Source: Hymenobacter oligotrophus
GTDB lineage: Bacteria > Bacteroidota > Bacteroidia > Cytophagales > Hymenobacteraceae
Direction: 5' to 3'
Assembly (NCBI RefSeq): GCF_003574965.1
Contig: NZ_CP032317.1
Span: 62,001-126,000, forward strand
Length of the DNA stretch: 64,000 bases
Part shown: positions 1 to 64,000 of the stretch, piece by piece
Layout of the letters: the number at the start of each line of letters is the position of its first letter
How positions within the stretch are numbered: position 1 is the first letter of the stretch
Position numbers and translations under genes: made by a program
Notes under the pieces: model-generated
Database searches by the model: none
What the model was told of the DNA's origin: nothing
Seen by the model: only the letters and a program-made list of their open reading frames with translations

Positions 1-452
1 TGCCGCAGCCTAACCAGATTGACAAGCCCCGCTCGGAGCAGCCGCTGCCCAGCGCCGCCGAGTTGCTGCAAGCCCCCGAAGGCACCATTACCGAAGACGG
101 CATGCGCCAGAACATCGATGTAGCCCTTCGCTACCTAGGAGCCTGGATTGGTGGCAACGGCTGCGTGCCGCTCTACAACCTAATGGAAGATGCCGCCACC
201 GCCGAAATTTCGCGCGTGCAACTGTGGCAGTGGCTACACACCCCCGAAACCGAGCTGGCCGATGGCCGAGCCATAACGCCGGAGCTGTACCGCGAGCTGC
301 TGCAAGATGTGGTGGATAAGTTGCGGCGCGAAGTAGGGGAGGATACCTACCAGGAGTACTACCGCTCCGCCGTGCACCTGCTCGACCGCCTCGTGACGGC
401 TGATCAGTGCGCCGATTTTCTTACGCTGCCAGCTTACGAAGTACTGGCTTAA
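1..452 (+). CDS. aceB: malate synthase, C-terminal part (5' end outside window)
   Basis: This is the last 149 residues of malate synthase, which condenses glyoxylate with acetyl-CoA to malate in the cytoplasm. The open frame runs in from the left edge (first full codon at position 3) and stops at 450-452. The visible part is the C-terminal helical domain, including the family's NIDVALRYLGAWIGGNGCVPLYN segment split as NIDVALRYLGAW and GGNGCVPLYNLMEDAATAEI, followed by the QLWQWLHT stretch. The catalytic barrel lies upstream of the window. Isocitrate lyase follows 238 bases downstream on the same strand, so the two glyoxylate-shunt enzymes are paired. The gene symbol follows the A-type enzyme (aceB), whose C-terminus it matches; the G-type is much longer and less similar here. 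Confidence 0.93.
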   Translation, partial: PQPNQIDKPRSEQPLPSAAELLQAPEGTITEDGMRQNIDVALRYLGAWIGGNGCVPLYNLMEDAATAEISRVQLWQWLHTPETELADGRAITPELYRELLQDVVDKLRREVGEDTYQEYYRSAVHLLDRLVTADQCADFLTLPAYEVLA

Positions 453-465
453 GCAGCCCTAAATC

Positions 466-562
466 ATGTAGCGCGAGCTTCGGTCCGCAGCCTAGGCGTG
501 CAAGTGCCAATCCGCTGGATGATTGGTGTTACCGCCGAACTGGGCTGAAGTTCGTGCTACAT
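466..562. repeat. degenerate inverted pair of a short palindromic repeat
   Basis: Positions 466-483 and 545-562 are inverted copies of an 18-base sequence with three mismatches. Both resemble the cleaner GTAGCGCGGACTT-type units at 52.3-52.55 kb, so this looks like a decayed copy of the same dispersed family. It lies in the 238-base gap between the malate synthase and isocitrate lyase genes; I see no convincing promoter there. Confidence 0.5.
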
Positions 563-690
563 CGGGCTACTGCTTGCCTGCTGCGGGCACATCCATCTGC
601 TTACCGCTTGCCTTAAGCCGCCTAAAAAAAGTGGCCTGGCTTCTCGTTGCCCTAACCGTCTCTGTTTTCTACTCCCAAAACACTACTCCT

Positions 691-1989
691 ATGAACCGCG
701 CCGAACGCATTGCCGCCATCAACCAAGATTGGGCTACCAACCCCCGCTGGAAAGGCATTGAGCGACCCTACTCTGCCGAAGACGTTGTAAAGCTGCAAGG
801 GTCTGTAAGAATTGAACACTCGTTGGCGCGGCACGGGGCCGAGCGGCTCTGGAAGCAGCTGCACACCGAGCCCTACGTGGCAGGCCTAGGAGCCCTTACC
901 GGCAACCAGGCCGTGCAGGAGGTGCAGGCCGGCCTCAACGCCATCTACCTTTCGGGCTGGCAAGTAGCCGCCGACGCCAACCTGGCCGGCCACATGTACC
1001 CCGACCAAAGCCTATACCCCGTCGACTCGGTGCCCGCCGTGGTGCGCCGCATCAACAACGCCCTGCTCCGCGCCGATCAAATTCAGCACCTCGATGGCAA
1101 AGACGGCGACGAAAACCGCGTGAATTACCTCGTGCCTATTGTGGCCGATGCCGAAGCCGGTTTTGGCGGCAACCTGAACGCGTTTGAGCTGATGAAGATG
1201 ATGATCGAAGCCGGCGCCGCGGGCGTGCACTTCGAGGATCAGCTGTCGTCGGCGAAGAAGTGCGGGCACCTAGGCGGCAAGGTGCTGGTGCCTACCCAAG
1301 AGGCCGTGCAAAAGTTGGTTGCCGCCCGCCTTGCTGCCGATGTGCTGGGTGTGCCCACGCTCATTGTGGCCCGCACCGATGCCGACGCCGCCGACCTGCT
1401 CACCTCCGATGTAGACGAGCGCGACAAGCCCTTTGTGCTGCAAGAAGCCGAACGCACTTCCGAGGGCTTTTACCGGGTGCGCTGCGGTGTAGAGGCGTGC
1501 ATTGCGCGCGGCCTGGCCTATGCACCTTATGCCGATATGCTCTGGATGGAAACTTCGCACCCCGACCTGGAGCAGGCCCGGCAGTTTGCTGAAGGCATCC
1601 ACGCCAAATACCCGGGCAAAATTCTGGCCTATAACTGCTCGCCCTCGTTCAACTGGGCCGCCAAGCTGACGGTGGAGCAGATGGAAACCTTCCGCGAAGA
1701 GCTGGCTGCCATGGGCTTCAAGTTTCAGTTCATCACACTGGCCGGTTTCCACGCCCTCAACACCAGCATGTTCGAGCTAGCCCAAGCCTACCGCGACCGG
1801 GGCATGGCCGGCTACTCGGAGCTGCAACAACGTGAGTTTGCCCTCCAGCAACACGGCTTTAAGGCCGTGAAGCACCAGGCTTTCGTGGGCACAGGCTACT
1901 TCGATGCTGTGCAGAACGTGGTGTCGAGCGGGCAGGCTAGCACGGCCGCGCTGGTGGGCTCTACCGAAGAAGCGCAGTTTCAGCACTAA
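691..1989 (+). CDS. aceA: isocitrate lyase
   Basis: Isocitrate lyase splits isocitrate into succinate and glyoxylate, the first step of the glyoxylate shunt, which lets the cell grow on acetate or fatty acids. The 432-residue product is close to the E. coli enzyme (434). The catalytic signature KKCGH lies at residues 189-193, with the active cysteine at 191. Other family blocks are [22 protein letters not shown] and YNCSPSFNW. An upstream open frame exists, but the family N-terminus ([14 protein letters not shown]) begins at the ATG at 691, so that start is used. It ends before a strong bidirectional terminator and converges on RNase D. Together with the preceding malate synthase it forms the complete bypass. 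Confidence 0.97.
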
Positions 1990-2037
1990 GCCACTAGCCA
2001 CACTTGCCTAGGTCACGTCAAGCAGGAGCATTACTCC

Positions 2038-2122
2038 TGTCATGTCGAGCGGCAGCAAGACATCTGGGGTAGAATGTTCGCGCTGTTTTTAGTTAGATGT
2101 CTCGCTTACGCTCGACATGACA
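2038..2122. repeat. intergenic imperfect palindrome (28-base arms)
   Basis: The arms at 2038-2065 and 2095-2122 are inverted copies matching at 25 of 28 positions around a 29-base spacer. The core reads TGTCATGTCGAGC, then AGACATCT. It lies after isocitrate lyase and before the terminator, and looks like a dispersed REP-type element rather than a terminator because it lacks a T-run. Confidence 0.65.
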
Positions 2123-2144
2123 ACAGCGCCGATACTACCGCTAC

Positions 2145-2186: not shown

Positions 2187-2205
2187 GGGATTTACCTAGG
2201 GCTGC

Positions 2206-3390
2206 TTACGCATTCACCGCATCGAAAGGCTCGGAGATAAAGCCGTAATCGAGGTTGTGGCGTTGGGTAGCGTCGCGGAGTAGCTGTTTTTGCCACGGGC
2301 GCAGCACGCGTTCGGTGCCTTGCTCCACGATGTCGGCAATCAGCCGGTTCGAGAGTACCAAGTTGGCCACGTAGCTATTGATGTCGTTGGCAATGTGCGC
2401 CTTCAGCGTCATCAGGAACTGCTCGCGAGCATCGGCGCGGGCGGCACGCTCGCCGTTAAGCCGACGACGGAACGGAAAGCGGCGCTGGTCGGCAGTCATG
2501 GGCGGCTCGGGCACGGGCACAAACTTATCCGGCGACATGGCCGCGAGCTGTTGAAGGTACGGCTCGCGCTTCAGCTCGGGGTGCAAGCCGCGGGCGGCGC
2601 GCCAGTCGTTGGTGCTGCGTGGGGTGTCGCGCACCAGCTCCGAGAGGCGGTCGTTCGAAAACACCATGTACGGCGGCCGGTCGAGCTCCTTGGCTACTTG
2701 GTCGCGCAGCAAGTACAAGTCGCGGAACAGCGGCAACTCGTGCGGCTGAATGCGGTACTTGCCCGCAATGCGCAGGTAAGGGCGTTCGTCGCGGGTGTAG
2801 CGCACATCTTCCAGAATGGCGTTTTCCTCGGCGCCCCACTGCGTGCGGCCCAGCTCGGCCAGTTTATCGGCCAGGCGGTCGGCCAGCTCCAGCAGGTACA
2901 GCACGTCGTTGGCGGCGTACTGCTTTTGAGCCTCGGTGAGTGGGCGCTTCAGCCAGTTCGACTTCTGCTCGCCCTTATCCACCTCAATGCCCAGCTCGCT
3001 CTGGATCAGCCGACCTAGGGCAATGTTGTTGTCCGACTCGGCCAGCAACGTGTGCAGCACGCTGGTATCGGTAATGCGGCGCACGCGCACGCCGTACAGC
3101 TCATCGAGCAGCAGAATATCCGATTTGCAGCTGTGGAATACCTTTTCCACGTTGGCATCGCCCAGTATGTCCCAAAGCGGCTGCAGCTGGGCGGCGGCAT
3201 CGACCAGCGGAATCGGGTCGATGAGGTATACCGTGGCCCCGTCGAAGAGTTGGATTAAGGCAAGATTGCGGCCGTAGTGATGGCGCATGTCGTCGAACTC
3301 CAGGTCGACGGCAATGCGGGGTTGGTTACGCAGCCAGTCGGCGGCTTGCCGAATTGCATCGGGCGTAGTGAGGTATTGTATTTCAGCCAT
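2206..3390 (-). CDS. rnd: ribonuclease D
   Basis: RNase D is a 3'-to-5' exoribonuclease that trims tRNA and other stable RNA precursors. The 394-residue product has the DEDDy exonuclease domain in its first half: Exo I at AVDLEFDD (D29, E31), Exo II in FHSCKSDILLLDEL and Exo III in the YAANDVLYLLELA segment. An HRDC-type helical region follows at about 205-290 (RPPYMVFSNDRLSELV ... ARGLHP). The ATG at 3390 gives the usual family start, MAEIQYLTTPDAI; upstream in-frame codons would add only a few atypical residues. It converges on isocitrate lyase and appears monocistronic. Confidence 0.93.
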   Translation of the reverse strand: MAEIQYLTTPDAIRQAADWLRNQPRIAVDLEFDDMRHHYGRNLALIQLFDGATVYLIDPIPLVDAAAQLQPLWDILGDANVEKVFHSCKSDILLLDELYGVRVRRITDTSVLHTLLAESDNNIALGRLIQSELGIEVDKGEQKSNWLKRPLTEAQKQYAANDVLYLLELADRLADKLAELGRTQWGAEENAILEDVRYTRDERPYLRIAGKYRIQPHELPLFRDLYLLRDQVAKELDRPPYMVFSNDRLSELVRDTPRSTNDWRAARGLHPELKREPYLQQLAAMSPDKFVPVPEPPMTADQRRFPFRRRLNGERAARADAREQFLMTLKAHIANDINSYVANLVLSNRLIADIVEQGTERVLRPWQKQLLRDATQRHNLDYGFISEPFDAVNA

Positions 3391-3986
3391 TAAATAACAA
3401 GTAGGCCACAAGGTAGAAACCTTACGCGAAGGTAGTAGCGCGGCTGCTTCGTACCCGGTAAAGGTAGGCAGGCCAAACGATGTACGCCAGCACCGGGCCC
3501 ACGCCCTAGGTGCGGGTAGCCGTGTTTGGGCACCCTACCGGGCCTCCGCACGCCGTAGCTTGCCACCCGAGGCTGAGGCACATGCCAAACACGGCGTGCG
3601 AAACCCAGCCAGGATGCAAACGTACCGGTTTCGCAACACGTATGAGCCTGCTTATAAATTTTGGTAGCACCATTACCAGAATAATTGGCTTCTGATTGCT
3701 CGGGTAGTGATATAATGTTGCGCAATAGTTATATTAGTTGCAAGCCAAGGCGTATTTTGCCAGTTGGCGGCAGTAAACCTTTCCACGGCTTTTTACTTCT
3801 TTTGACGCACAATGCTCGACAGGAAATTTTCCTAGGTGCCGGAAGCAGCTCCGGCCGCTGGGAACTGGCCTCGTTGGCGGCACCGCGGGTAGCGCTGTTA
3901 GCGGGCTAATTTCCAACGCTTAGCAGTAAGCATGGCATCACTTTTTTCGCTTTTCACTCACCAAACCGGCCGCAAGGCCACCCATT
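3391..3986. other. 596-base intergenic region upstream of the SusC gene
   Basis: No credible gene is seen here. The first part holds an 11-base inverted repeat (3519-3529 and 3585-3595) and a CCTAGG. The part from about 3640 to 3740 is clearly richer in A and T and is the likely promoter area for the divergent RNase D and SusC genes, but I found no exact TAnnTTTG element. Another CCTAGG lies near 3831. Confidence 0.5.
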
Positions 3987-8444: not shown

Positions 8445-8472
8445 GTGCTTACGCCCTAGGTTGCCTAACCAA

Positions 8473-8508: not shown

Positions 8509-8607
8509 CATTGCTGGCCCGGCCTTACCTAGGGCTACGCAAGGGCTGCCGTTTGCATGGAGCGGCTTTGTTTAGGCACGTGCCCAAGGCTGGGCTGCTG
8601 CGGCCGG

Positions 8608-11144: not shown

Positions 11145-11300
11145 AAGCTCAGCAATAAGCAGCAGCGGCTGGCCCGGTGCGGCGAGCCTAAAAGTACCTA
11201 GGGGCGGTAGTATAACCACATCGGCTACCTTGCGGCGTACATTCGCTGCAGGGCCGCAGGTCCTTTCATCTACCCACGTTTTTTCCACCTAGGCAAAACG

Positions 11301-15705: not shown

Positions 15706-15766
15706 CGGGGCAAAATTAACCCAGTGGCCAATACGGCGCTGCCCTAGGTAAACGGGGTACAAACAA

Positions 15767-17483: not shown

Positions 17484-17500
17484 GGGCCCTAGGTGCAAGG

Positions 17501-20050
17501 CTACATCGGGTCCACGTCGGCTACAATGCGGGCCTGTCGGAAATCCTTTTCGTCGCGCACCAGCGTAATGGCCTCCAAAATTTGTGCTTTGGCGTGCTTC
17601 AGCACCGTGTGCTCGCGGCTGAGCTTGATGGTAATTTCCTGCAGGTAGAAGTTACGGATGCGAAAAATGTACGGTGCCTCGGGCCCCAGCACCGCATCTC
17701 TACCTAGGCGCTCCACCAGTTCCTGCGTCAGCAGTACGGCGGCTTCTAGGGCCATACGCTCTTCCACGTGCTTCACCGTAATCTTGATGACGCGAGCAAA
17801 CGGCGGGTACATGTGCTCGCGGCGTTGCGCAATTTCGTACTCGTAGAAATCCTGGTAATCGTTGCGCATCACCTTGTCGAAGATGGGCTGTTGCGGGTCG
17901 CCGGTCTGCACGATTACCTTGCCTTTTTTGCCCTTGCGCCCCGCGCGGCCGCTTACCTGCACAAACATTTGGTAGGCCCGTTCGTGCGCCCGGAAATCGG
18001 GGTAGTGGATGATGCTATCGGCGTTGATAATGCCCACCAGGCTCACGTTGCCGAAGTCGAGGCCCTTGGTCACCATCTGCGTACCCACCAGCACGTTGGT
18101 GCGCTGCTGCTCAAAGTCGCTGATGATTTGCTGGTAGGCGTTTTTGGCGCGTGTGGTGTCTAGGTCCATGCGCTGCACGTTGGCCTCGGGCAGCATCAGC
18201 TTCAGGTCGTCCTCGATGCGCTCGGTGCCAAAGCCCATGGCCCGAATTGCGCGCGAGCCGCAAGCCGGACATTCGCGCGGCATCACCTCGTGGTGCCCGC
18301 AGTAGTGGCAGCGCAGCTCGTGCGCGTTTTTGTGGTAGCTGAGGCTCACGGCGCAGCTCTTGCACTTGGGTATCCAGCCGCAATCCAGGCAGCTGATAAA
18401 GGGCGAATAGCCGCGGCGGTTCTGAAACAGAATCACTTGTTCGCCCTGCGACAAACGGCCTTCGATTGCCGCTGTGAGCTCGGGCGTGAAGTGGTGCGAA
18501 GGTTTCTTCTGACCTTGCTGCGCGTTTCGCCGCGTATCGATCAACTCGATTTCGGGCAAGCCTGCCTCGCCAAAACGCTTGGTAAGCGGCACCAGGCCCC
18601 AGCGGCCCGCCCGGCACTGGTAGTACGTTTCGACCGACGGCGTAGCCGACCCCAGCAGGATTTTGGCGCCTTGGAAAGTACCCATCATCAGGGCTACTTC
18701 GCGGGCGTTGTAGCGCGGGGCCGGGTCGTACTGCTTATAGCTCGATTCGTGTTCTTCGTCGACGATGATCAGCGACAAACTATCGAAAGGCAGAAACACG
18801 GCCGAGCGCACGCCCACCACCACCTGAAAGCGGCCCGAAAGCACGCCGTTCCATACTTCCACGCGCTCGTTGTCGGAGAACTTGGAGTGGTACACACCTA
18901 GGCGCGAGCCAAATACGCGCATCAGGCGCGTCACGATTTGTGCCGTCAGGGCAATTTCGGGCAGCAGGTACAGCACTTGGCCGCCGCCTTCCAGCGCTTT
19001 CCGAATCAGATCGATGTAAATCTCGGTTTTGCCGGCACCGGTTACGCCGTGCAGCAGCGTAATGTCCTTCTGCCCAAACAGCTCCAGCACTTGGTCGCGG
19101 GCTTTGGTTTGGGCTTCCGATAACTCGAAGGGCATTTGGTTGCCTTCTTTTTCATCGAGCGGGAAGCGCGACACAATCTGATCGAACTGCTCGAGCACGC
19201 CGTTTTTGATGAGCGTGTTTACGGCAGAGGGCGAGAGGTGCGGCGAGCTGGTGAGGGCCGCTTTCTCGAGGCCGGTGTGGTTGGCGTGCTCGTTTTGGTA
19301 CACCGGCACGCGCTGGATGTAGCGCATCAGCACATCCAGTTGTTTTGGCTTGCTGGCGAGGTTTTCAAATAAGCCCTCTAGCGCTGCCTCGGCCACGAAA
19401 TGATGCGCCAGGCGCACCTTCTTCACCACCTTGGGCGCGTACTTATCGGCAATGTGCTCGAACAGAAAGACAACGTCCTTCTGGATCAGACTCTTGATAA
19501 CCTTGTGGAACGAGCTGATGCCTAGGATTTCGCCCACCTCCGAAAAAGTCAGCGCTTTGCCGTCTTCGGTACCTAGGGCTTCCACAATTTTTTGCTCCTG
19601 CTCGCTTAGCGGGTAGGGCGTGCCTTCCGACAGATACTGCGGATGCAGCTGCACCCGCGACTCGGAGCTGAGCTTTAGCGCCGAGGGCAAAGCCGCGTTG
19701 ATGACCTCGCCCAGCGTGCACATGTAGTACTCCGCAATCCAGCGGAAAAGCTTGAGTTGAGGCTGCGTAACCACCGGCGCATCGTCGATGAACTCGAGGA
19801 TATACTTGGCCTGGTAGTCCTTGGGCGGGGTTTCGTGCACGGCCGCCACAATGCAGCTCAGCGTCTTTTTCGCGCCAAACTGCACCAGCACCCGCCCGCC
19901 AATTACCACTTGGTCGTTCAGCTCGAAGGGTACGCGGTACGTGTAGAGCTTGGGCAGCGGCAAGGGCAAAATCACGTCGGCGAAAAGCGTAACGCGGTCG
20001 GCCGCGGCGGGCTCGGACTGGGGCAAGGAGAAAAGGTGCGTTTGGGACAC
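17501..20050 (-). CDS. priA: primosomal protein N' (replication restart helicase PriA)
   Basis: PriA is the 3'-to-5' DNA helicase that reloads the replisome at stalled forks. In order: N-terminal DNA-binding domain (VILPLPLPKLYTYRVP), winged-helix region, helicase core with Walker A (LHGVTGAGKTEIYID) and the DEEH box (IIVDEEHESSYKQYDP), the zinc-binding insert with eight cysteines (CLDCGWIPKCKSC ... CHYCG ... CPACGS), then helicase lobe 2 (LVGTQMVTKGLDF, QVSGRAGRKGK) and the C-terminal domain. The GTG at 20050 is preferred, giving 849 residues. An in-frame TTG at 20074 lies inside the TATCTTTG promoter element, upstream of any likely transcript start. Confidence 0.95.
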   Translation of the reverse strand: MSQTHLFSLPQSEPAAADRVTLFADVILPLPLPKLYTYRVPFELNDQVVIGGRVLVQFGAKKTLSCIVAAVHETPPKDYQAKYILEFIDDAPVVTQPQLKLFRWIAEYYMCTLGEVINAALPSALKLSSESRVQLHPQYLSEGTPYPLSEQEQKIVEALGTEDGKALTFSEVGEILGISSFHKVIKSLIQKDVVFLFEHIADKYAPKVVKKVRLAHHFVAEAALEGLFENLASKPKQLDVLMRYIQRVPVYQNEHANHTGLEKAALTSSPHLSPSAVNTLIKNGVLEQFDQIVSRFPLDEKEGNQMPFELSEAQTKARDQVLELFGQKDITLLHGVTGAGKTEIYIDLIRKALEGGGQVLYLLPEIALTAQIVTRLMRVFGSRLGVYHSKFSDNERVEVWNGVLSGRFQVVVGVRSAVFLPFDSLSLIIVDEEHESSYKQYDPAPRYNAREVALMMGTFQGAKILLGSATPSVETYYQCRAGRWGLVPLTKRFGEAGLPEIELIDTRRNAQQGQKKPSHHFTPELTAAIEGRLSQGEQVILFQNRRGYSPFISCLDCGWIPKCKSCAVSLSYHKNAHELRCHYCGHHEVMPRECPACGSRAIRAMGFGTERIEDDLKLMLPEANVQRMDLDTTRAKNAYQQIISDFEQQRTNVLVGTQMVTKGLDFGNVSLVGIINADSIIHYPDFRAHERAYQMFVQVSGRAGRKGKKGKVIVQTGDPQQPIFDKVMRNDYQDFYEYEIAQRREHMYPPFARVIKITVKHVEERMALEAAVLLTQELVERLGRDAVLGPEAPYIFRIRNFYLQEITIKLSREHTVLKHAKAQILEAITLVRDEKDFRQARIVADVDPM

Positions 20051-20100: not shown

Positions 20101-20182
20101 TCCTGCCGGCAGAGCATCCGGAAATGGCTATTCAGCCATGTGCCTGCCGCAGAGCCGCCTGTTGGAACCTAGGGCCCCAACA

Positions 20183-25195: not shown

Positions 25196-25196
25196 C

Positions 25197-42949: not shown

Positions 42950-43106
42950 CAAAAGCACCGTTGCTACGCTCTAGGTGCTCGGCAGTCCTACGGGCAAGCG
43001 CAGAGCTAAAGCCTGCCTAGGCGCCAATTTGCTAGGCCTGCCCACGAGCTGAGGTGGACACAACCACCTAGGGCAACAAACCGATCAACGAATATGCTTT
43101 GCACGC

Positions 43107-47008: not shown

Positions 47009-50000
47009 ATGTTGCCACTGATACGCTGCTACTTGCGCTGCTTTTTGCTGCTGGCTTTGCTGGCAGGTAGCGCATGGGCGCGTGCGCAACAGCGGCCCGA
47101 GCTCATGTCGTCGCGTAGGTGCGTGTGGGTGCGTGTGCCCGCCGGCCGCGACACCACCGAGTTTGTGCTTCGCGATTCGCTGACCGTAGTACCATCGTCG
47201 GTTTCCGTTTCGGTGCCGGGCCGAGCAGTGGCTTACGACCGCACCACCGACCGTTACCGCATTCTGTGGCCGAGCAGCCGCGTGGCTTCGCCCGAGCCCA
47301 CCGAGCCCGAACTGCGCCTGCCCACCAACCGGCCCGATTCGGTGCTGGTATGTTACCGCGTGCTGCCCATGCGCCTAGGTGCGCCGGTAGCGCGCCGGCC
47401 CAGGGGGCTGATGGATACCATTAGCTTCAACAACCGGCCGTTTACGGGGTACGCGGGCCTAGGTCAGCAGGAGCAGATTTTGTCCACGCCGGGCATCAAC
47501 AAAACGGGCAACCTCACGCGGGGCGTTTCGTTCGGCAACGCCCAAAACGTGTTCGTCAACTCGGCGCTCAACCTGCAACTCGAAGGCAAGCTCACCGAGA
47601 AAATCGGGCTTACGGCAGCCATCAGCGACCAGAATGTACCGTTTCAGCCCGAGGGCAACACGCAGCAGCTGCAGGAGTTCGACCGCATCTACATCACCCT
47701 TACGCACCCAAATTGGGCGCTTACGGCCGGCGACGTGGTACTGCGTAACAAGCCCGATTACTTCCTGCGTTTTTACAAAAACGTGCAGGGCGCGGCGGCC
47801 GAGGCGCAGTTTTGGCAGCGGCCCGGCTGGCGCAGCTCCACCAACGTGGCGGCGGGCGTGGCCAAAGGCAAATTTGCCAGCACCACCGTCGAGCCTATTG
47901 AGAACGTGCAGGGGCCGTACCGCTTGCGCGGGCCCAACGGCGAGCAGTTTATTATCATTCTGGCCAACTCCGAGCGCGTGTACCTCGACGGCCGCCTGCT
48001 GGTGCGAGGGTTTGATAACGACTATGTCATTGACTACAACACGGCCGAACTCACGTTTTCGCCGCGGCACCTCATCACGCGCAACTCGCGCATTCGCGTT
48101 GATTACGAGTACTCCGATTTCAACTACGCCCGCTCACTCTACCACCTCAGCCACTACCAGGAGGCCGGGCGCCTGCAGCTGCACGCCAACTACTACCGCG
48201 AGGCCGATAACCCCGACAACTCGCCCAACCTCACGCTCGACGACGACGACCGCGACTTTTTGCGCCGCTTGCCCGAAAATGTGAGCATTGCCGCCACGCC
48301 CGGCGCCGACTCGGTGAATTACGACCGCCGCCAAGTGCAGTATAACCGCGTGCGCTACCGCGACCCCGCTACCGGCGAGCAGCGCTGGGTATTTGAGCTA
48401 CTGACCGACTCGACGCGCAGCGTGTACAACGTGCGCTTCACGGATGTGGGCGAGGGCAACGCCGACTACGTGCTGAGCACCGACCCCAACAAAACCAACG
48501 CCAACGGCCGCGTGTACGAGTACGTGCCGCCCATTGGCGGCGTAGCGCGGGGGCGCTACCGGCCCGAGCGCCTGCTACCCACCCCGCTCGAAAAGCAGCT
48601 GATTTCGGCTGGTGCCAACTTCCGGGTCGATTCGACCACCTCGGTGTTCGTGGATGTGGCCTCGTCGGACCTCGACCTGAACCGTTTCTCGCCGCAATCG
48701 GATCAGGGCCACTCCATGCGCGTGGGTTACGCCGTGCACGACAAGCCCTTGGCCGTGCCGGGGCTGCGCAACTACCGCTTGCGCTCCGCCATGGATTACG
48801 AGTACACCAGCCGCCGCTTTTCGCCCATCGACCGCTACCGCGACATCGAGTTCGACCGGAACTGGAGCACCACTGCTACGCAGCAGAGCAACGGCATTGG
48901 CGGGCGCCTCTCGCGCGAAGACAACATCTTCAACTTTGCGGTGGGCGCTGCCAAGGACCTCAACAACCACTTTGGCTACCGCGTGAGCCGGCGCTACCGG
49001 GCGGGCGAGGTAAGCGGCGTGCAACACTGGTTTGATGCCGCGCAGCGCGTGGGAGACGTGGAGCTGCGCGGCTCGCTGTTCTTGCTCGGAGCCGAAGCTG
49101 GCCGGCGCCGCTCCAGCTGGACGCGCGGCGAAGGCGCCGTGCGCTACGCCCGCGGCCCGGTGGTGCCCGGCTACGCCTACCGCTTCGATAAAAACCGCGT
49201 AGCGCTGCCTTCGGGCGACTCGCTCTCGTCGGCTAATTACTTCGACGAGCATGCTGTGTTTCTGCAAAGTCAGGACAGCGCCCGCACCAAATACCGCCTC
49301 GATTACACCTACCGCCGCGACCGTACGCCCAACGCCGAGCAAACCGCCCTGCAGCTGCGCGGCACCGCCCAAACCTGGCAGGGCCAGCTCACCACGCGCA
49401 TCGGCCGCAACCAAGATTTGAGCCTGCTGGCCACGTACCGCGACTTGCTGGCCCGCGACAGTGCCCGGCAGCGCACGGCCCTAGGTCAGTTGGCCTGGAA
49501 CGTGGCCTTGCTGCAGGGGCAGGTGCGCTCCGAGCTGACCTACAACGTAGCCACGGGCCGCGAACCGAAGCGCGATTACGTGTTCATACCGGTGCCCAGC
49601 GGCCAGCAGGGGCAAGGCACGCACTACTACGCCGGCGACCTGAACAACAACGGCCGCCAAGACAAAGAGGAGTTTTTGGAGGCCGCCACGCCCGATGCGG
49701 TGTTCCGCACCCACATCAAGGTATTTCTCTTTACCGATACCTACGTTACGGCCTTCACCAACCGCTTTGGTTACCGCCTGCTGCTGGCTGCACCTAGGGA
49801 GTGGCGCGATGGCAGCGGCTGGCGAGCCATGCTAGCTCGGTTTAGCAACGTGAGCAGCGTCAACCTCGATCGGCGCACCACTGAAAAGTCGCTGTCGGCG
49901 CGCCTGAACCCGTTTGCGTACCAAACCAACGACGAGCAGCTGTTGTCGCTCAACAAGCTCTTGCGCAACACGCTGTACTTCAATCGTTCCAATCCGGTGT

Positions 50001-52253: not shown

Positions 52254-52325
52254 GAAGACAGAAAAGAAGTTATTGGCCTTTACCGCAACTCGGCGCTTTG
52301 CGTTGCCCTAGGTGGTGTAGCGCCA

Positions 52326-52553
52326 TGTAGCGCGGACTTTGTAGTCCGCGTCCACAGATAGTAAAATCAATCGTTGCGCGGTAGCGCGTGTAGCGCGGAC
52401 TTCAGTCCGCGTTGGCGTGAACAGCCGGTCATGCGCGGTTTCGCACCTACGATTTCGTGCTGGCAAAGGTGGGCTAAAGCCCGCGCTACACGCGCTGTAT
52501 CCCTAGGTCAAAAATTGCTATCTGTGGACGCGGACTACAAAGTCCGCGCTACA
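52326..52553. repeat. nested inverted REP-type repeat cluster
   Basis: Two perfect 36-base arms (52326-52361 and 52518-52553) form an outer inverted repeat; inside it, 14-base arms (52385-52398 and 52481-52494) form a second one. Each unit contains its own small palindrome of the type GCGGACT...AGTCCGC. Four units of the GTAGCGCGGACTT family are therefore packed in 230 bases between the lipoprotein and hexosaminidase genes. The whole could fold into one large cruciform. Confidence 0.8.
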
Positions 52554-52577: not shown

Positions 52578-54614
52578 CTAGCGCGTAATGGCTTTCCGCA
52601 CCACTTCAGCCAAAGGCAACTCGGTTTGGCCGGCGGGCTTCTGGGCTTGCTCTAGTTGCTTTTGCGCGGCCGCCAACCATTCGGCGGAAGCTGGTTTGCC
52701 CTTCTCCAATTGCTCAAGGCGCTGCAGCATCAGGGTTGATACAACGGTAAGCTGCGTGGAAAGCGGAGCGTACTCGCGCAGGCTGGGATTGGCTTGCAGC
52801 AGCGGCTGCACCAGGGCATCGTTCTGCTGCCATTGTTTTAGCTGCGTGCGCAGGCGGGCCAGCTGCCGCCGCGTTTCGGGGGTGTGCGGCAACTGCGTAG
52901 TAAGCGCCCGCGGATAGGAGAGCAGGCTATCGAGCGTCGCGCCAAACTGCCGCACCACTTCCGACTCGGCCGGTGCCGCATCAACCAAGCGGTTGAGCGG
53001 CGTTTGCGTGGTGTATTTGAAGCCCTGAAAATGGCGCTTGTATTCTTTAACGGGCTCCAGTGCGTGGGCCAAGGTGCGCAGCGGGGCCACATCGTGGCCG
53101 GCGGCCATCATGCCCAGCAGCTGCTCGGGTGCGCGGCGGTGTTGCAGACCCAGGCCTTCGAGCTGCGCCGATATAGCACCTAGGCGGCGGTACATATCGG
53201 GCACGTTGGTAACCGTAGCCTCCGACCACAACCGCTCGGCCACGGCCGCTGCCCGGGGCCACGTCCGCGAATCGTAAATAACCGAATCGGCAAACTCCGA
53301 CCACATGGTAGCCTCGCCGCCGAGGATGCGTTTCTTCTCTTCGTCGGTTAGGGGTGCATCGGCAGGCACGGGGTCGGGGGCGTAGTGCGAAGCGGCGGTT
53401 AAGTACAGATCGATGTAGTAGCCATTCGATAGAATAGCCTGGTGGCCCGCTTTGGCGGCTTCGTAGAGGCCTTTTTTGCCGCGCCAGCTCTGGATTACAG
53501 CATCGGGCGGCAGCCCAGGGCCCAGGATTTCGTCCCAGCCGACCATGCGCTTCTGGTACTTCGTCAGCATGGTCAGTACGCGGCGGTTAAAGGCCGTTTG
53601 CAGCGCGTGCTTGTCCACCGAGCCGTCGCGCTTTACCATGCCTTGCTGGCGCATGTACTGGGCAATGCGCGGGTTGCGGCGCCACTGCCGGCCGTCGTTT
53701 TCGTCGCCGCCGATGTGAAAGTACGGGTCGGGGAACAACGCCGTCATTTCGGCAAACAGCTTGTCGAGCAGCTCGTAAGTCGACTCCTTGGTGGGGTCCA
53801 TGGCAATGTTCAGCACGCCCCAGCGCGGCGATACGCCGTACGTCGAGTCGTTGGAAGCCAGCTCGGGGTAAGCCGCCAGCCAAGCCGTAGCGTGGCCCGG
53901 TACATCGAACTCGGGCACCACCCGAATGCCGCGCGCCTGGGCATACTGCAGCACTTCGCGCACCTGCTCCTGGGTGTAGTAGCCGTTGGCGCCGCCCACT
54001 TGATGCAGCTTGGGCAGTACTTTGCTTTCTATTCGAAAACCTTGGTCGTCGGTAAGGTGCCAGTGCAGCACGTTCAGCTTCACCGCCGCCATGGCATCGA
54101 GGTTGCGCTTTATAACCGAAACGGGCAAAAAGTGCCGGGCCGGATCGAGCAGCAGCCCCCGCCACGGAAAGCGCGGTTGGTCTTGTATCTCTACTTCGGG
54201 CAAGTAGCTGCGCTTGGCGTCGCCTTGCGGCAGTTGCTCTAGGGTGGCCAAAGCCCGCAGCACACCTAGGGAAGTAGGCGCATCAATGGTAACGCCGTTG
54301 GGCGTTACGCGCAGGCTGTAGCGTTCCTCATCAAACTGCTCCATGCGGCCAAGCTTGCCGTACCGGATTTGCAGCGGCAAGGCAGTGGTTGCGGCCGTGC
54401 CGTTTCGTCGTAGGCGGTCGAGGGTGCGCGTAACGGCGGCGCGCAGTTGGGCGTCTTCGGGGCCGTCGAGTTGGGGCTTCAGCAGGGCTTTAGGTGCCAG
54501 CGAGGCCTTGCCCCAACTAACTTGGGTTGGCACGGGCAGGAGCTGGCGCGTATCGGTAGGCTGGGCAAAAGCGGCAAGCGGCAGGAGGAGCAGAAGCAAA
54601 AGCAAACGAAGCAT
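52578..54614 (-). CDS. exported beta-N-acetylhexosaminidase (GH20)
   Basis: A 678-residue family 20 glycoside hydrolase that would cleave terminal N-acetylglucosamine or N-acetylgalactosamine from chitin fragments, glycans or peptidoglycan. A signal peptide (LLLLLLLLPLAAFAQ) is followed by the N-terminal GH20b domain (about 25-145) and the catalytic barrel: RGLLLDPARHFLPVSVIKR, LNVLHWHLTDDQGFRIES, GIRVVPEFDVPGHATAW, and the Asp-Glu pair in YFHIGGDEND. The C-terminal part is helical. It appears to be a single gene; no polysaccharide-utilisation neighbours are present. Confidence 0.95.
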   Translation of the reverse strand: MLRLLLLLLLLPLAAFAQPTDTRQLLPVPTQVSWGKASLAPKALLKPQLDGPEDAQLRAAVTRTLDRLRRNGTAATTALPLQIRYGKLGRMEQFDEERYSLRVTPNGVTIDAPTSLGVLRALATLEQLPQGDAKRSYLPEVEIQDQPRFPWRGLLLDPARHFLPVSVIKRNLDAMAAVKLNVLHWHLTDDQGFRIESKVLPKLHQVGGANGYYTQEQVREVLQYAQARGIRVVPEFDVPGHATAWLAAYPELASNDSTYGVSPRWGVLNIAMDPTKESTYELLDKLFAEMTALFPDPYFHIGGDENDGRQWRRNPRIAQYMRQQGMVKRDGSVDKHALQTAFNRRVLTMLTKYQKRMVGWDEILGPGLPPDAVIQSWRGKKGLYEAAKAGHQAILSNGYYIDLYLTAASHYAPDPVPADAPLTDEEKKRILGGEATMWSEFADSVIYDSRTWPRAAAVAERLWSEATVTNVPDMYRRLGAISAQLEGLGLQHRRAPEQLLGMMAAGHDVAPLRTLAHALEPVKEYKRHFQGFKYTTQTPLNRLVDAAPAESEVVRQFGATLDSLLSYPRALTTQLPHTPETRRQLARLRTQLKQWQQNDALVQPLLQANPSLREYAPLSTQLTVVSTLMLQRLEQLEKGKPASAEWLAAAQKQLEQAQKPAGQTELPLAEVVRKAITR

Positions 54615-54679: not shown

Positions 54680-56059
54680 TCAGATCATGCCCCGCGACTT
54701 AAACTCGAGGTACCGGTTGATGGTGTTGGCCGTGAGGTTTTGCGGCGCCGTGAGCAAGGCATGAATGCCGTAGCGCTGCAGCTCCAGCACCATGCGGCGC
54801 TTGTCCTGCACAAATTTTTCGGCCACGGTTTGGTGGTACAGTTCTTCGGTGCTGGTAGCTGGTGTTTCGATCACGCCGCGCAGCTCGGTGTTTTCGAAGA
54901 ATATCACCAGCAGCAGGTGCCGGCTGGCTAGGCGGCGCAGGTAGGGCAACTGGCGCTGCAGGCCGTGCAGGCTTTCGAAGTTGGTGAACAGCACCAGCAG
55001 GCTGCGCTGCTTTACCTGCCGCTGCACCAGGGCAGCCAGCCGCTCAAAGTCCGATTCAAGAAAGCGGGTTTGCTGCCGGTACAGCACCTCCAACAAGCGC
55101 GGCAGCTGGCCCCGGCGGCGGTCGGCGGGTACTACGTCGCCGGGTTCGTGGGCGAAGGTGATGAGGCCGGCGCGGTCGTGCTTGATTAGGGCGATGTTGC
55201 TAAGCACGAGCGAAGCGTTGATGGCGTAATCGAGCAAGGCTAGCTCCTCGAAGGGCATGCGCATTACGCGGCCTTTATCAATCACGCAGTACACCTGCTG
55301 GGCGCGCTCGTCTTCGTGGTGGTTCACGAGCAGCTGGTCGCCGGCTTGACTGGGGCGGCGGGCCGTGGCTTTCCAGTTGATGGTGCGCGGGTCGTCGCCG
55401 AGGGCATAGGGCCGAATGTGGTCGAACTCCATGCTTTGGCCCACGCGGCGGATGCGCTTCACGCCGACTTCGGTAAGGCGGTTGCTAAGGGCAAGCAGCT
55501 CGTAGCGCCGCATCTGCAAAAATGAAGGGTACACAGCCGTCGTCACGTCGGCCTCGCCGAAGCGGTAGCGGCGCTGCACCAGGCCCAATGGCGAGCGGGC
55601 CAGCACGTTGGTTTGGCCAAACACGTACTCGCCGCGGCGCGTGGGGCGCAGTTGGTAGTGCAGGGTGGTGCTGGTGCCGCCGCTCAGCTGCAGCGGAAAG
55701 AGCAAGTCGCGGCGCTGAAACTGCACCGGCACGTCGTCGACCACATCGAGGCGCGCGGCAAAGGGGTAGCGGTTTTCGATTACTACTTGCACGTCGTTGT
55801 CGTCGCCGTTGGAGAGGCGCCGGCCAAGTACCCGCCGCGCAAATACGCCCTCCCCGCGGCCCAGGGTGTAGAGCAACCCTAGGTCGAGGAGTGTAAACAA
55901 GGCCAGCGCAACCGCCAGAATTTGCGCCGGCGCTACCAGCACGGGCCAAAAGTGCGCCACAATCAGGAGGGTAATTACCACCGCCCACGCGGCAAAAAAG
56001 CGCGGCGGCAGCAACAACGAGGCTACCAGGTTGCGGAAGAAAGATGATTTAGGTGACAC
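54680..56059 (-). CDS. DUF58 domain protein
   Basis: A protein of about 459 residues with two N-terminal helices (FFAAWAVVITLLIVAHFWPVLV and ILAVALALFTLLDLGLLYTLG), a beta-rich domain (RYPFAARLDVVDDVP...RRGEYVFGQTNV), then the DUF58 signature MEFDHIRPYALGDDPRTINWKATAR and a von Willebrand A-like domain (VYCVIDKGRV...LLVLFTNFES). DUF58 proteins sit beside MoxR ATPases and are thought to be their partners or substrates. The GTG at 56059 is a guess, since the upstream sequence is a repeat array; the true start may be a few codons away. It is downstream of moxR on the same strand. Confidence 0.9.
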   Translation of the reverse strand: MSPKSSFFRNLVASLLLPPRFFAAWAVVITLLIVAHFWPVLVAPAQILAVALALFTLLDLGLLYTLGRGEGVFARRVLGRRLSNGDDNDVQVVIENRYPFAARLDVVDDVPVQFQRRDLLFPLQLSGGTSTTLHYQLRPTRRGEYVFGQTNVLARSPLGLVQRRYRFGEADVTTAVYPSFLQMRRYELLALSNRLTEVGVKRIRRVGQSMEFDHIRPYALGDDPRTINWKATARRPSQAGDQLLVNHHEDERAQQVYCVIDKGRVMRMPFEELALLDYAINASLVLSNIALIKHDRAGLITFAHEPGDVVPADRRRGQLPRLLEVLYRQQTRFLESDFERLAALVQRQVKQRSLLVLFTNFESLHGLQRQLPYLRRLASRHLLLVIFFENTELRGVIETPATSTEELYHQTVAEKFVQDKRRMVLELQRYGIHALLTAPQNLTANTINRYLEFKSRGMI

Positions 56060-57419: not shown

Positions 57420-57489
57420 GCGGTAAAATTGGCCACAGCACCTAGGGCAAGGCGGGCGGCAAGTAGGTGATAGAAGTTAACCCAAGCGG

Positions 57490-61459: not shown

Positions 61460-62449
61460 TCAAGGAGCCTGCTCGTCGGTATCGGGCAGGGCCAGACCTA
61501 GGCGCGTGGTGCGGCGGTACACCCACCAGGGGTACACCACAAAGTAGCCCACTACCAGCACCAGCGAAAGGCCGATGGCCGGCAAACTCACGGCCAGCGG
61601 GTGCCGCGGGGCCAGGCGCGTTATAAAGCCCTCCAGAAAGGCCGCTACCACAATCAGCGGCACCAGGCCGGCCATCAGGCGCATGCCGTCGCGGGCGCCG
61701 CGGCGCAGGGCCTCGCCGCGCGGGTAGCTGCCCGGAAACAGCAAGCTGTTGCCGAGCACCAGTCCCGCTCCGGCGGCCAGAATAATGCAGCTGATTTCGA
61801 TGGTGCCGTGCACCCAAATGGCCAGGGCCGATTTCAGCCCCACGCCCTGCTCGAAAAAGAAATACTGAAAGCTGCCCACCATCACGGCGTTACGAAACAG
61901 CACGAACAGCGTGCCCAAGCCGCCTATCGCGCCGAACGCAAACGTGAGCAAAGCCACGCGCACGTTGTTGAAGGCGATGTACAGAAACATGGACATTTCG
62001 GGCGCGGTGCCATACACATCGGTGGGGCGGCCGCGCCGAATGTTTTCGAGCGTAGAGTTGACGTAGGCGTCGCCCAAAATCAGGCGCACAAAGCTGTCGT
62101 CTTCGGCCGCCGACAGCGCACCTAGGCCCGCAAACAGCGAAAACAGCACAAAGGCCAGCAGCATGGGCCGCCAGTGGCGCGCCATCAGCAGGGGCAGCTC
62201 GAGGCGCCAAAACGTACCTAGGGGCTGGCGGCGCGTGCTGCGGCGGCGGTACAGTTGCTCATGAAAGCGCGCGGCCAGCTGGTTGAGGTGCTCGGTAACG
62301 GGCGCCGAGGGGTAGAACGTACGGGCGTACGCCAGGTCGTCGGTGAGGGCCACAAACCGCTCGGCCAGCTCCTCGGGCGTGCCGGCCGGGGTGTGTTCGT
62401 AAGAGTGCCACCGCTCTTGGTTGCGGCGAATGAATACAGCTTCGCGCAT
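61460..62449 (-). CDS. SpoIIM/DUF95 family membrane protein
   Basis: A 329-residue protein of the stage II sporulation M (DUF95) family, named for Bacillus SpoIIM, which takes part in septal membrane engulfment. This organism is not a spore former. An N-terminal soluble helical part (MREAVFIRRNQERWHSYE...VTEHLNQLAARFHEQLY) is followed by six or seven helices, with the family block GDAYVNSTLENI...GTAPEMSMFLYIAFNNVRVALLTFAFG and the GTIEISCIILAAGAGLVLGNSLL segment. The ATG at 62449 is used; a TTG at 62482 would add 11 residues. First gene of the cluster on this strand, divergent from RDD. Confidence 0.9.
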   Translation of the reverse strand: MREAVFIRRNQERWHSYEHTPAGTPEELAERFVALTDDLAYARTFYPSAPVTEHLNQLAARFHEQLYRRRSTRRQPLGTFWRLELPLLMARHWRPMLLAFVLFSLFAGLGALSAAEDDSFVRLILGDAYVNSTLENIRRGRPTDVYGTAPEMSMFLYIAFNNVRVALLTFAFGAIGGLGTLFVLFRNAVMVGSFQYFFFEQGVGLKSALAIWVHGTIEISCIILAAGAGLVLGNSLLFPGSYPRGEALRRGARDGMRLMAGLVPLIVVAAFLEGFITRLAPRHPLAVSLPAIGLSLVLVVGYFVVYPWWVYRRTTRLGLALPDTDEQAP

Positions 62450-62537: not shown

Positions 62538-63287
62538 ATGGCTCAGTTGCGCATCCCAACCACCCAAAACGTTACGCTCGAGTACGAAACCGCCTCTATT
62601 GGCGAACGAATTGCCGCCACCTTGCTCGACGGCGTAGTGCAAGCCGGCTGGGTTATTTTGTGGATGCTGCTGCTGTTCGGCGTGTTCGACGTGCAGACCA
62701 ACCGCAACGAGGTGCTGTTGGGCGTAATCGTGATTGGATTCGTGGTGCTGCCGCTGTTTTTGTACCACTTGGTGTCGGAGGCGCTGTGGCAGGGCCAGAG
62801 CATCGGCAAGCGCATCATGAAGGTGCGCGTTATCAGCCTGAACGGCACGCCGGCGCGCTTTACGCAGTACCTGCTGCGCTGGGTGTTGCGCCTGGTTGAT
62901 GTGAGCATGTTCTATGGCATTGTGGCCATTGCCTGCATTTTGGGCAGCGGCCGCGGGCAGCGCCTTGGCGATATGGCCGCCGGCACCGCCGTGGTACGCC
63001 TCAACCGCCGCCAAACCACCGCCGACAACTCCCTGTTCGGTTCCGATTACGACCCCAACTACCGCGTTACCTTTCCGCAGGTAGCGCAGCTCGCCGACCA
63101 CGACGTGCGCCTGATACAAGAGCTGGTAACGCAAAGCGAGAAACGCGGCGCCTACCACATCCTCGACGAAGTAGCCCAGCGCGTACGCACGCTTACCGGC
63201 ATCGAAACCACCATGCCTAACCACGAATTTTTGCTGGTGGTGCTGCGCGATTACGGCTACCTGGCCTCGCAGGCGGCGGCGCGCTAG
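62538..63287 (+). CDS. RDD-family membrane protein
   Basis: A 249-residue RDD-domain membrane protein. The family Arg-Asp-Asp residues lie in SIGERIAATLLDGVV and the later GQSIGKRIMKVRVISLNG segment; two or three helices follow (GWVILWMLLLFGVF, VLLGVIVIGFVVLPLFLYHLV, FYGIVAIACILGSG). A C-terminal soluble domain of about 90 residues (FPQVAQLADHDVRLIQELV...NHEFLLVVLRDYGYLA) is present. It is divergent from SpoIIM with an 88-base gap and belongs to the same conserved neighbourhood. RDD proteins are often thought of as transporters, but without firm evidence. Confidence 0.88.
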   Translation: MAQLRIPTTQNVTLEYETASIGERIAATLLDGVVQAGWVILWMLLLFGVFDVQTNRNEVLLGVIVIGFVVLPLFLYHLVSEALWQGQSIGKRIMKVRVISLNGTPARFTQYLLRWVLRLVDVSMFYGIVAIACILGSGRGQRLGDMAAGTAVVRLNRRQTTADNSLFGSDYDPNYRVTFPQVAQLADHDVRLIQELVTQSEKRGAYHILDEVAQRVRTLTGIETTMPNHEFLLVVLRDYGYLASQAAAR

Positions 63288-63384
63288 GTGCCAATTGGCT
63301 GCCGCCCAGGCAACAAGGCCGGCCGCGCCCAACTCCGCTGCCGTTTGGCCGTAGCAGGAGGGTAAACCTTACGCTGATACCGCC

Positions 63385-63780
63385 ATGGCTACCGATAATA
63401 GAAACGACAACGACAAATTCGATTTCGTAAAGGACAACGACCCGCGCGAGTCGCCCAACCTCAGCCCCCAGCCCGAAAACCTGCGCCGGGGCGCCGAGGT
63501 AGCCAACCAGCCCGAGGGCATACCCGGCCAAACGGCCAACCCCGGCCTGCAGGCTCCGCACCAGCAGGCGCCCAACTACGGCGATTTTGGCAAGCCCGAA
63601 AACGTGCTGCCGCAAAGCCAGGCTTCGACCTCCGGCGAAAACTTTCAGCCGTACTACGGCCAGGAAACCCCGCCCGAGCCCGACACCACTCGCCACGGCG
63701 ACACACGTTTCCGGCAGAGCGGCACCCGCAACTGGGAAACCAACGAACCCGAAAACCCGCACCAGGGCTCCGAGAGCTAA
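63385..63780 (+). CDS. disordered hydrophilic small protein
   Basis: A 131-residue hydrophilic protein without signal peptide or helices. It starts with a Asn/Asp-rich stretch (MATDNRNDNDKFDFVKDND) and is otherwise rich in Pro, Gln, Gly and Asn (PGQTANPGLQAPHQQAPNYGDFG), with no repeats. It looks intrinsically disordered. A clear terminator follows. No family is recognised. It could be a stress or desiccation protein, but nothing in the sequence shows that. Confidence 0.65.
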   Translation: MATDNRNDNDKFDFVKDNDPRESPNLSPQPENLRRGAEVANQPEGIPGQTANPGLQAPHQQAPNYGDFGKPENVLPQSQASTSGENFQPYYGQETPPEPDTTRHGDTRFRQSGTRNWETNEPENPHQGSES

Positions 63781-63810
63781 GCCCACGGGTCCTAGGTGCC
63801 TGATAGCAAT

Positions 63811-63844
63811 AAGCCCCTGCCAGCTTGCTGGCAGGGGCTTTTTA
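63811..63844 (+). terminator. terminator after the disordered-protein gene
   Basis: A 14-base stem (AAGCCCCTGCCAGC with its complement), TT loop and a T-run, 30 bases after the stop; it also faces the end of the convergent gene at the window edge. Confidence 0.87.
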
Positions 63845-63865
63845 GTAGCTAAGCAAACCGGACTG

Positions 63866-64000
63866 TTACCCGGCTGTGTGCTGCATCTTGTTTTTGCGAC
63901 CCGGCCGCACGGGTAGGCGGTCTTCGCCCTGGGCCAGCAAATCCTCGTCGCGTTCGGTTTTCTTCACCACCCAGCTTACCGAATACAGGTCTTTGCGCCG
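63866..64000 (-). CDS. C-terminal end of an unidentified protein (5' end outside window)
   Basis: The last 44 residues of a minus-strand gene that runs off the right edge; the stop is at 63866-63868. The visible part is basic and polar (RRKDLYSVSWVVKKTERDE, then DLLAQGEDRLPVRPGRK, ending NKMQHTAG). Codon choice matches the neighbours and the frame is open throughout, convergent with the preceding gene across a terminator. The protein cannot be identified from this piece. Confidence 0.6.
   Translation of the reverse strand, partial: RRKDLYSVSWVVKKTERDEDLLAQGEDRLPVRPGRKNKMQHTAG

Follow-up and report, generated by a model that had tools for sequence, protein, structure and literature searches.

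CCTAGG as the core of an asymmetric, iterated word with dialects in Hymenobacteraceae: a possible uptake-signal-like watermark

The stretch of Hymenobacter oligotrophus DNA analysed here (the window: 64 kb, C1:62001-126000 of a genome, G000, of 4,188,814 bp in 4 contigs) is strewn with the hexamer CCTAGG, and we find that in G000, its sister G005, and G007 (probably Solirubrum puertoriconensis MC1A), together the D1 clade, this hexamer is the core of an asymmetric word, CCCTAGGT/ACCTAGGG, with the soft consensus GCCCTAGGTGC, occurring in either orientation. Gains of the word are raised and its losses lowered against matched codons in each D1 lineage, and five dialect words found among related genomes share CCTA, differ in their outer letters, and mostly occur one to a genome. 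By analogy with uptake signals, we tentatively read CCTAGG as the core of a dialect watermark that may be spread by sequence-preferring DNA exchange with a putative pilus-independent reader, a reading that we consider possible without calling it probable. Among the matches listed in the open-licence literature, an iterated CCTAGG word in Hymenobacter is unreported.

The window holds 73 copies of CCTAGG, as against a mean of 11.1 and a maximum of 17 in 100 dinucleotide shuffles and Markov expectations of 20.3, 11.9, 9.6, and 15.4 at orders 0 to 3; at order 4 the expectation is high (57.6), since the word itself brings in CCTAG and CTAGG. CCTAGG ranks first by z among the window's hexamers at each order from 1 to 3. 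By our own gene calls, 25 sites lie in 6,647 bp of non-coding DNA, 43 are read as C-CTA-GG (Leu-Gly), and 5 as CCT-AGG (Pro-Arg). These figures bear out a preliminary description of the window, made from its letters alone, which had given about 70 copies with about 20 expected from base composition, about 23 of them in some 6 kb of non-coding DNA and the coding ones mostly in the Leu-Gly phase, and which had proposed a third-order Markov comparison as a check; at 15.4 expected, that comparison leaves the excess standing. Genome-wide (4.19 Mb), there are 5,678 copies (~1,355 per million) and 67 of GGATCC, the control for each word here being its letters written backward; this is the roughly one site per kb seen with highly iterated palindromes (HIP), and so strong an enrichment is the reverse of the avoidance expected of a restriction target. 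The longer CCTAGGTGC occurs 753 + 689 times in the same genome, and its reversed word 2 + 1 times. In D1 stretches of 350-400 kb each, CCTAGG cores stand at 1.26-1.40/kb, and non-coding density exceeds coding density throughout (2.61 vs 1.11, 2.28 vs 0.97, and 1.87 vs 1.09 per kb in G000, G005, and G007, the order kept for all triplets below), with peaks within 50 bp after stop codons (5.9, 5.8, and 4.9 per kb). The G000 stretch has 558 sites, 375 of them coding and 164 non-coding, the remainder falling on gene edges or overlaps.

The six letters are only part of the word. Flanking pairs at the 558 sites (400 kb) were A..G at 301, A..C at 160, A..T at 8, and C..G at 9, and the 164 non-coding sites gave 105, 31, 2, and 6, whereas independent flanks (A 0.45, C 0.38) would predict about 33 A..T and 24 C..G. 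Both classes fall far below that expectation, and the word is therefore asymmetric, with T (backwards, A) at one end as a rule. The flank pairs thus rule out the palindromic hexamer as the entire word, which is how it had first been described: the full palindromes ACCTAGGT and CCCTAGGG make up 2 and 6 of the 164 non-coding sites, unlike in a HIP. The 6-bp core is palindromic, and a palindromic 8-mer is present at 27 of 53 sites in G070 and 22 of 59 in G109, two relatives considered below. The extension to CCTAGGTGC that had been reported for many sites does occur, at 19 places in the window on both strands, but it captures only part of the rule, the stronger element being an A/T on one flank, which gives CCCTAGGT or GCCTAGGT (= ACCTAGGG or ACCTAGGC), followed by a less pronounced GC. 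When 143 non-coding G000 sites were oriented, they read G.54, C.73, CCTAGGT, G.53, C.50, corresponding to GCCCTAGGTGC, a consensus that G005 and G007 share. Codon choice follows suit: the Gly codon after C-CTA-GG is GGT in 121 of 135 cases with C preceding and in 5 of 119 with A preceding, a contrast that is weaker after C-CT(C/G/T)-GG (20/48 vs 1/37).

In 400 kb of G000, both strands together, CCCTAGGT occurs 301 times against 6.8 expected (order 2), with none of the reversed control, and the observed/reversed counts for the three D1 stretches are 301/0, 290/0, and 193/0. Such an octamer, asymmetric, species-specific, and present in coding and non-coding DNA, might be a Chi-like word for recombination or self-protection, read by a RecBCD/AddAB-type nuclease and enriched in its host. 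Its orientations, however, are balanced (150/151, 157/133, and 104/89) and never more uneven than 22 to 10 in 23 bins of 50 kb, among which GC skew is positive in 6/8, 4/8, and 5/7; no orientation bias along the replichore appears in these 50-kb bins, the position of the origin not having been located. Further, the excess lies far above the 1008 vs 151 given for E. coli Chi in the part of PMC1939737 available to us, although the models behind the two expectations differ, and we regard a Chi-like role as quite improbable. An asymmetric word of ~9-12 bp, found about once per kb in both orientations, is the form taken by DNA uptake sequences (DUS) and uptake signal sequences (USS), and perfect CCCTAGGT at 0.55-0.75/kb with an 11-bp GCCCTAGGTGC has this form.

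Within genes, the CTA share in the context xxC-CTN-GG is 345/520, 296/550, and 292/400 (54-73%), as against 3-10% in other contexts in G000 and G005, 8-14.5% in G007, and 0-6% in the same context of five word-poor relatives; with the best flanks (ACCTAGGG/CCCTAGGT) it reaches 83-93%. Pro-Arg pairs with AGG likewise number 38/307, 40/307, and 32/263 vs 1/279 in the poor relatives. With ancestral states assigned by parsimony over the three aligned sister species and gapped sites dropped, CTG>CTA gains were 4/23, 3/19, and 11/26 in context vs 67/1668, 35/1608, and 103/1710 outside (odds 5.0, 8.4, and 11.4; Fisher p 0.014, 0.009, and 2e-7), and CTC>CTA gains, which are transversions, were 2/9, 1/10, and 2/11 vs 7/525, 1/494, and 7/515 (p 0.009, 0.039, and 0.013). 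Losses of CTA to any base were 11/142, 36/167, and 4/135 in context vs 10/34, 29/53, and 7/31 outside (odds 0.20, 0.23, and 0.10; p 0.0016, 1e-5, and 8e-4). Gains up and losses down in each lineage therefore point to selection, biased repair, or biased recombination, and not to a mutational hot spot. Conservation of sites between relatives, another check proposed at the outset, is also seen: once 6 of 464 sites were dropped for gaps, 315 of the 458 gaplessly aligned G000 sites (69%) are kept in G005 at 88.3% identity, for which the crude yardstick 0.883^6 gives ~47%.

Pure mutation bias (e.g., cytosine deamination turning CCCAGG into CCTAGG) or codon usage could account for some of these figures, as transitions dominate and 78 of the 101 single-base G000-G005 differences at sites are CCTAGG/CCCAGG, exchanges that fit synonymous CTA/CTG exchange, strongest in G005, where codons drift GC-ward. 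The T>C loss at the T of CCTAGG in G005 is above that of the average T (0.104 vs 0.037), and out-of-context CTA>CTG is also high there (18/53); in the other two lineages the same loss is slightly below average (0.026 vs 0.032; 0.008 vs 0.024). Against this explanation, losses are lowered too and transversion gains are raised, which rules out a deamination hot spot; CTA is rare outside the context, non-coding density exceeds coding density, and Vsr/Dcm-type genes do not track the word. We thus give mutation bias or codon usage very little credence. Depletion of CCCAGG as a sign of conversion was not telling, since G000 (0.72/kb) and G005 (1.13/kb) fall among the values of the five poor relatives (0.65-1.57) and G007 (0.52) just under it. 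Separately, synonymous changes in the G005 lineage run GC-ward relative to G000 and G007 (CTA>CTG, CTTGG>CCTGG), and this genome loses CCTAGG chiefly to CCCAGG/CCTGGG (42 of 58 lost sites); its Vsr and C5-methyltransferase genes lie ~10 kb from each other (C1:3010308 and 3021030).

Across the family, the word is patchy. By CCTAGG count, 9 of 204 family genomes exceed 5,000, 4 hold 1,209-2,331, and 191 hold 54-888; within the window's genus, three of eight are rich (5,678; 5,325; 6,212) and five poor (123-249), the word-poor members being probably H. edaphi, H. jeollabukensis, H. busanensis, Hymenobacter sp. CRA2, and Hymenobacter sp. 15J16-1T3B. A PriA tree of 25 rows (L217, H. psychrophilus, was dropped for a match longer than the gene) groups the three rich sisters on a single supported branch (100/98) adjoining word-poor species. 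Dialects were scored in a matrix of 58 samples of 7.5-400 kb from no more than 52 genomes (some handles may be the same as named records), partly picked by CCTAGG count, as were, non-randomly, those of genus g5; a weak word could escape the 20-kb samples, and neither a G098 sample (1,019 N bases), nor G048, nor any locus from beyond the genus group was included. Beyond the D1 word, the observed/reversed counts reveal ACCTAGGT in G070 (27/0), G158 (11/0), and G076 (5/0); CCCTAGGG in G109 (22/0) and G125 (8/0); TGGCCTAG in G082 (35/1), G172 (16/0), G164 (20/0), G080 (5/0), H. fodinae (10/0), and H. wooponensis (14/0); and CCCTACC in G060 (19/2), G083 (22/0), and H. citatus (24/1). Two genomes are mixed: G140 combines 13 CCCTAGGT, 6 CCCTAGGG, and CCCTACC at 15/2, while G125 also has 7 CCCTAGGT. 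In the remaining samples the four words other than CCCTACC are all at or below 0.1/kb, and CCCTACC has a background of 0-0.35/kb. Copies of each dialect word are dispersed over each sample, within genes and between them alike. On the tree, D1 forms a single branch and so does the H. fodinae/H. wooponensis pair, only 6 word-bearing genomes being placed there. These differing words of related species are an addition to the preliminary description, whose view of a selected word, if read as selected or driven, is strongly supported by the synonymous-codon bias, the raised gains, the lowered losses, the conservation, and the patchy distribution.

As for the tetramer CTAG, its observed/expected ratio is 0.07-0.44 in most word-poor Hymenobacter samples (exceptions being G129, G154, and G171 at 0.64-0.82) and at least 0.54 wherever a sampled genome has a dialect word containing CTAG.

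Spacing was compared with a null in which sites were reassigned among allowed places, using five measures. G000 is under-dispersed (2-kb variance/mean 0.73 vs a null of 1.02, 0/1000 as low; 5 kb, 0.008; coefficient of variation (CV) of spacing, 0.047), and G005 has 13 gaps >2.5 kb vs 20.4 expected (0.011) with a low spacing CV (0.017); in both, the CTA share is higher the farther the closest neighbouring site lies (logistic p 0.024 and 0.026). At most, there is a weak gap-filling pressure in two of three genomes. An unaligned 42.5-kb stretch of G007 (C8 ~1358920-1401426) holds 21 sites, 0.49/kb vs 1.37/kb in aligned DNA, and is either an acquired island or DNA whose G000/G005 partner was outside the compared stretches; in G005, unaligned DNA has 0.98 and aligned DNA 1.24 sites/kb, the unaligned runs including DNA with a partner outside the compared stretches. 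A terminator role was rejected because closely spaced pairs are no commoner than expected (35 gaps <60 bp vs 38.9) and most sites lie within genes.

The slightly even spacing of G000 and G005 would also suit an abundant chromosomal protein, such as a nucleoid organiser or a segregation or replication-transcription factor, that needs thousands of xCCTA half-site pairs, with weak selection on each site and dialects arising as its DNA-binding domain co-evolves. Near-saturation with CTA in the best contexts, a flank preference graded like an affinity matrix, and the two inverted xCCTA half-sites in CCCTAGGT, ACCTAGGT, and CCCTAGGG argue in the same direction, and the nucleoid-protein target mentioned in the preliminary description is in this form possible. 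Such a binding site, however, requires simultaneous selection on thousands of single sites; CCCTACC is without the inverted half-site; most sampled congeners are without such a word, so the protein would have to be dispensable; and there is no orientation bias, unlike in polar chromosome words. We therefore rate this explanation as rather unlikely.

In profile searches of 8 genomes, methyltransferases of PF01555 were absent from G000 and those of PF00145 from G000 and G007, and in searches of 30 genomes PF02384 was absent from G007, as was PF07669, whose hits in G000 were all below cut-off. A cognate methyltransferase from these families is thus unsupported, none of the four being over cut-off in all three rich sisters, with PF02086 and rarer families outside the search; the methylation target suggested earlier finds no backing within the same limits. 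Vsr-type short-patch repair was rejected as well, with PF03852 in 8 of 32 genomes and in 2 of the 9 rich ones. These results bear on a HIP-like repair drive, whereby a word-reading methyltransferase or nicking enzyme coupled to mismatch repair would resolve mismatches toward the word, much as in the mismatch-repair-coupled model for HIP1 (Elhai 2015, PMC4390886, available in part), the maintenance of HIP1 being still debated according to the same text. Raised gains with lowered losses fit biased repair, the density is near that of HIP1 (500-2500 per million in that excerpt), and alternate HIPs are described there from single cyanobacteria. The four methyltransferase families, however, are not common to the rich sisters, Vsr does not accompany the word, the D1 word is asymmetric, and the CCCTACC dialect is non-palindromic, so that of the likeness to HIP1 first proposed the density holds and the palindrome does not; we consider a repair drive unlikely.

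We infer that the bias is exerted by a putative sequence-reading protein, and take molecular drive through DNA exchange to be the likeliest process. In the uptake-signal-like reading, fragments bearing the word would be preferentially acquired (or kept) and then recombined into the chromosome, such that word-creating mutations would spread and word losses would be overwritten; drive by biased uptake and recombination is argued for uptake signals in the accessible part of PMC1939737. Dialects would arise as the reader changed and came to favour other outer letters, and if the system were lost the word would decay toward the word-poor state seen in most relatives. The reader would lie outside any type IV pilus, the system otherwise resembling the uptake signals of Neisseriaceae and Pasteurellaceae. 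With less confidence still, we suggest that Hymenobacteraceae may possess their own pilus-independent self-recognition, with a fast-evolving receptor preferring DNA that bears the species' own CCTA word, thousands of copies entered in each genome by the resulting biased exchange, at least five dialects in one family, and sequence-coded barriers to gene flow between species.

Several points weigh against this reading. None of 30 genomes, word-rich and word-poor alike, yielded PF00437, the ATPase of type IV pili and type II secretion; the control search matched all 14 control genomes, 13 of them over cut-off. Uptake through a type IV pilus was therefore rejected, and because the pilus machinery, a defining part, was looked for and not found, we do not class the word as a DUS or USS: the likeness to uptake signals raised in the preliminary description fits the pattern best but lacks this motor. 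ComP, the receptor known for uptake signals, is given as a type IV minor pilin in the available part of PMC12061091. No reader gene was found, a search aimed at competence genes not having been made, and neither uptake signals nor competence in Hymenobacter figure among the matches listed in the open-licence literature. Most of these patterns would also follow from a binding-site or repair function. Sites show no bias to gene ends, being flatly distributed along genes in the three D1 genomes. The evidence from spacing and from unaligned DNA is uneven: in G005, the 2-kb and 5-kb variance tests are non-significant (0.15 and 0.11), G007 is without even spacing (its spacing CV is above the null) and without a significant relation between CTA share and distance (p 0.44), and unaligned DNA in G000 is not site-poor (1.35 vs 1.32/kb). 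Finally, CTA>CTG losses taken by themselves are lowered in each lineage but reach significance in G007 only (p 0.15, 0.06, and 0.004), and the gain counts are small and not concentrated at the best flanks (0/5, 0/5, and 2/7, with weak flanks at 2/6, 0/5, and 4/8).

Table 1. CCTAGG sites of the window and each perfect copy of the D1 octamer, in window coordinates
Feature	Position	Strand	Context
All CCTAGG sites	1..64000	.	73; 27 perfect CCCTAGGT/ACCTAGGG, 30 GCCTAGGT/ACCTAGGC
CCCTAGGT	3504..3511	+	non-coding
CCCTAGGT	8454..8461	+	non-coding, directly past end of gene 7053-8444
CCCTAGGT	15742..15749	+	non-coding
CCCTAGGT	17487..17494	+	non-coding, between convergent genes (priA ends at 17501)
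CCCTAGGT	39654..39661	+	non-coding
CCCTAGGT	39906..39913	+	Leu-Gly
CCCTAGGT	49479..49486	+	Leu-Gly
CCCTAGGT	52306..52313	+	non-coding
CCCTAGGT	52501..52508	+	non-coding
CCCTAGGT	55877..55884	+	Leu-Gly
CCCTAGGT	2194..2201	-	non-coding
CCCTAGGT	3013..3020	-	Leu-Gly
CCCTAGGT	8527..8534	-	non-coding
CCCTAGGT	11196..11203	-	non-coding
CCCTAGGT	19571..19578	-	Leu-Gly in priA
CCCTAGGT	20167..20174	-	non-coding
CCCTAGGT	21200..21207	-	Leu-Gly
CCCTAGGT	22314..22321	-	non-coding
CCCTAGGT	23926..23933	-	Leu-Gly
CCCTAGGT	24025..24032	-	Leu-Gly
CCCTAGGT	34061..34068	-	Leu-Gly
CCCTAGGT	43066..43073	-	non-coding
CCCTAGGT	45277..45284	-	Leu-Gly
CCCTAGGT	49792..49799	-	Pro-Arg
CCCTAGGT	54264..54271	-	Leu-Gly
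CCCTAGGT	57440..57447	-	non-coding
CCCTAGGT	62216..62223	-	Leu-Gly

Within the window, the gene block at 24500-40989 has 8 CCTAGG in 16.5 kb, below the window average; its matches, mostly under curated cut-offs, are to multihaem cytochrome QrcA, QrcC/Fe-S, DsrP, and cytochrome oxidase subunit I families, and we take it to resemble an alternative complex III plus oxidase. Farther afield, the order-level relative G048 (f14 g19, 4.0 Mb) has 807 CCTAGG vs 62 of the control, the top of 22 order-level relatives, with no clear word in a 20-kb sample. The control word GGATCC is itself bimodal in genus g5 (0-30 in many genomes, about 60-325 in others, and few between, at 42, 43, and 51), as would be expected if some of these genomes avoided a BamHI-like target. 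In a different lineage, 22.5 kb (L236) of the Bacteroidia metagenome-assembled genome 3_bin.84 contain 19 dispersed CCATGGA vs 1 reversed, several as ATCCATGGAT, possibly another iterated word. Paired inverted hairpin-like elements resembling repetitive extragenic palindromes, unrelated to the CCTA words, were seen as GGCAAGCTAAAGCTTACCGCAC in G066:C1:9659-19090 (L153) and as GCTTGTCGAAGCATCTC in G109:C1 from base 10 (L135).

Iterated genome words are known in few lineages, as uptake signals, HIP1, and Chi. We know of no uptake signal in Bacteroidota, nor of one without a type IV pilus motor, and none is among the matches listed; a true uptake signal in Hymenobacter would be, to our knowledge, the first in both respects. 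One family with several dialects, many word-free controls, and close rich and poor relatives makes the cause testable by comparison: which gene goes with which dialect, and is the word a target of DNA uptake, of a binding protein, or of biased repair?

Set beside the known systems, the Hymenobacter word shares with the DUS of Neisseriaceae, as described in the available part of PMC3630211, thousands of copies on both strands, asymmetry, and dialects, which there sit on tree branches and here do so for D1 and the H. fodinae/H. wooponensis pair, with a dialect core of three nucleotides there and CCTA here. It differs in belonging to another phylum, in the missing type IV pilus ATPase, in being shorter (7-8 strong positions), and in that most sampled Hymenobacter relatives are without any word. 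The USS of Pasteurellaceae are alike in numbering hundreds to thousands, inside genes and outside them, and are reported to be evenly spaced (cited in the excerpt of PMC1939737); here even spacing shows clearly in G000, by some measures in G005, and not in G007. USS are also biased to gene ends (PMC2346458, in part), whereas here there is neither such a bias nor a pilus motor. HIP1 (GCGATCGC) is likewise an iterated word, patchy by species and sometimes replaced, but a palindrome with cognate methyltransferases according to the accessible text of PMC4390886, whereas the present word is asymmetric and without a shared methyltransferase in the four families. Chi octamers are species-specific, asymmetric, and host-enriched too, and differ in their strand bias and smaller excess; the available part of PMC1939737 also gives GCCTAGGC as an under-represented word, in a column headed E. 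coli. Together, the asymmetry, the density of ~1/kb on both strands, the dialects with a shared core, the two-way fixation bias, and the weak even spacing form a pattern that, by analogy, appears closest to DNA uptake signals.

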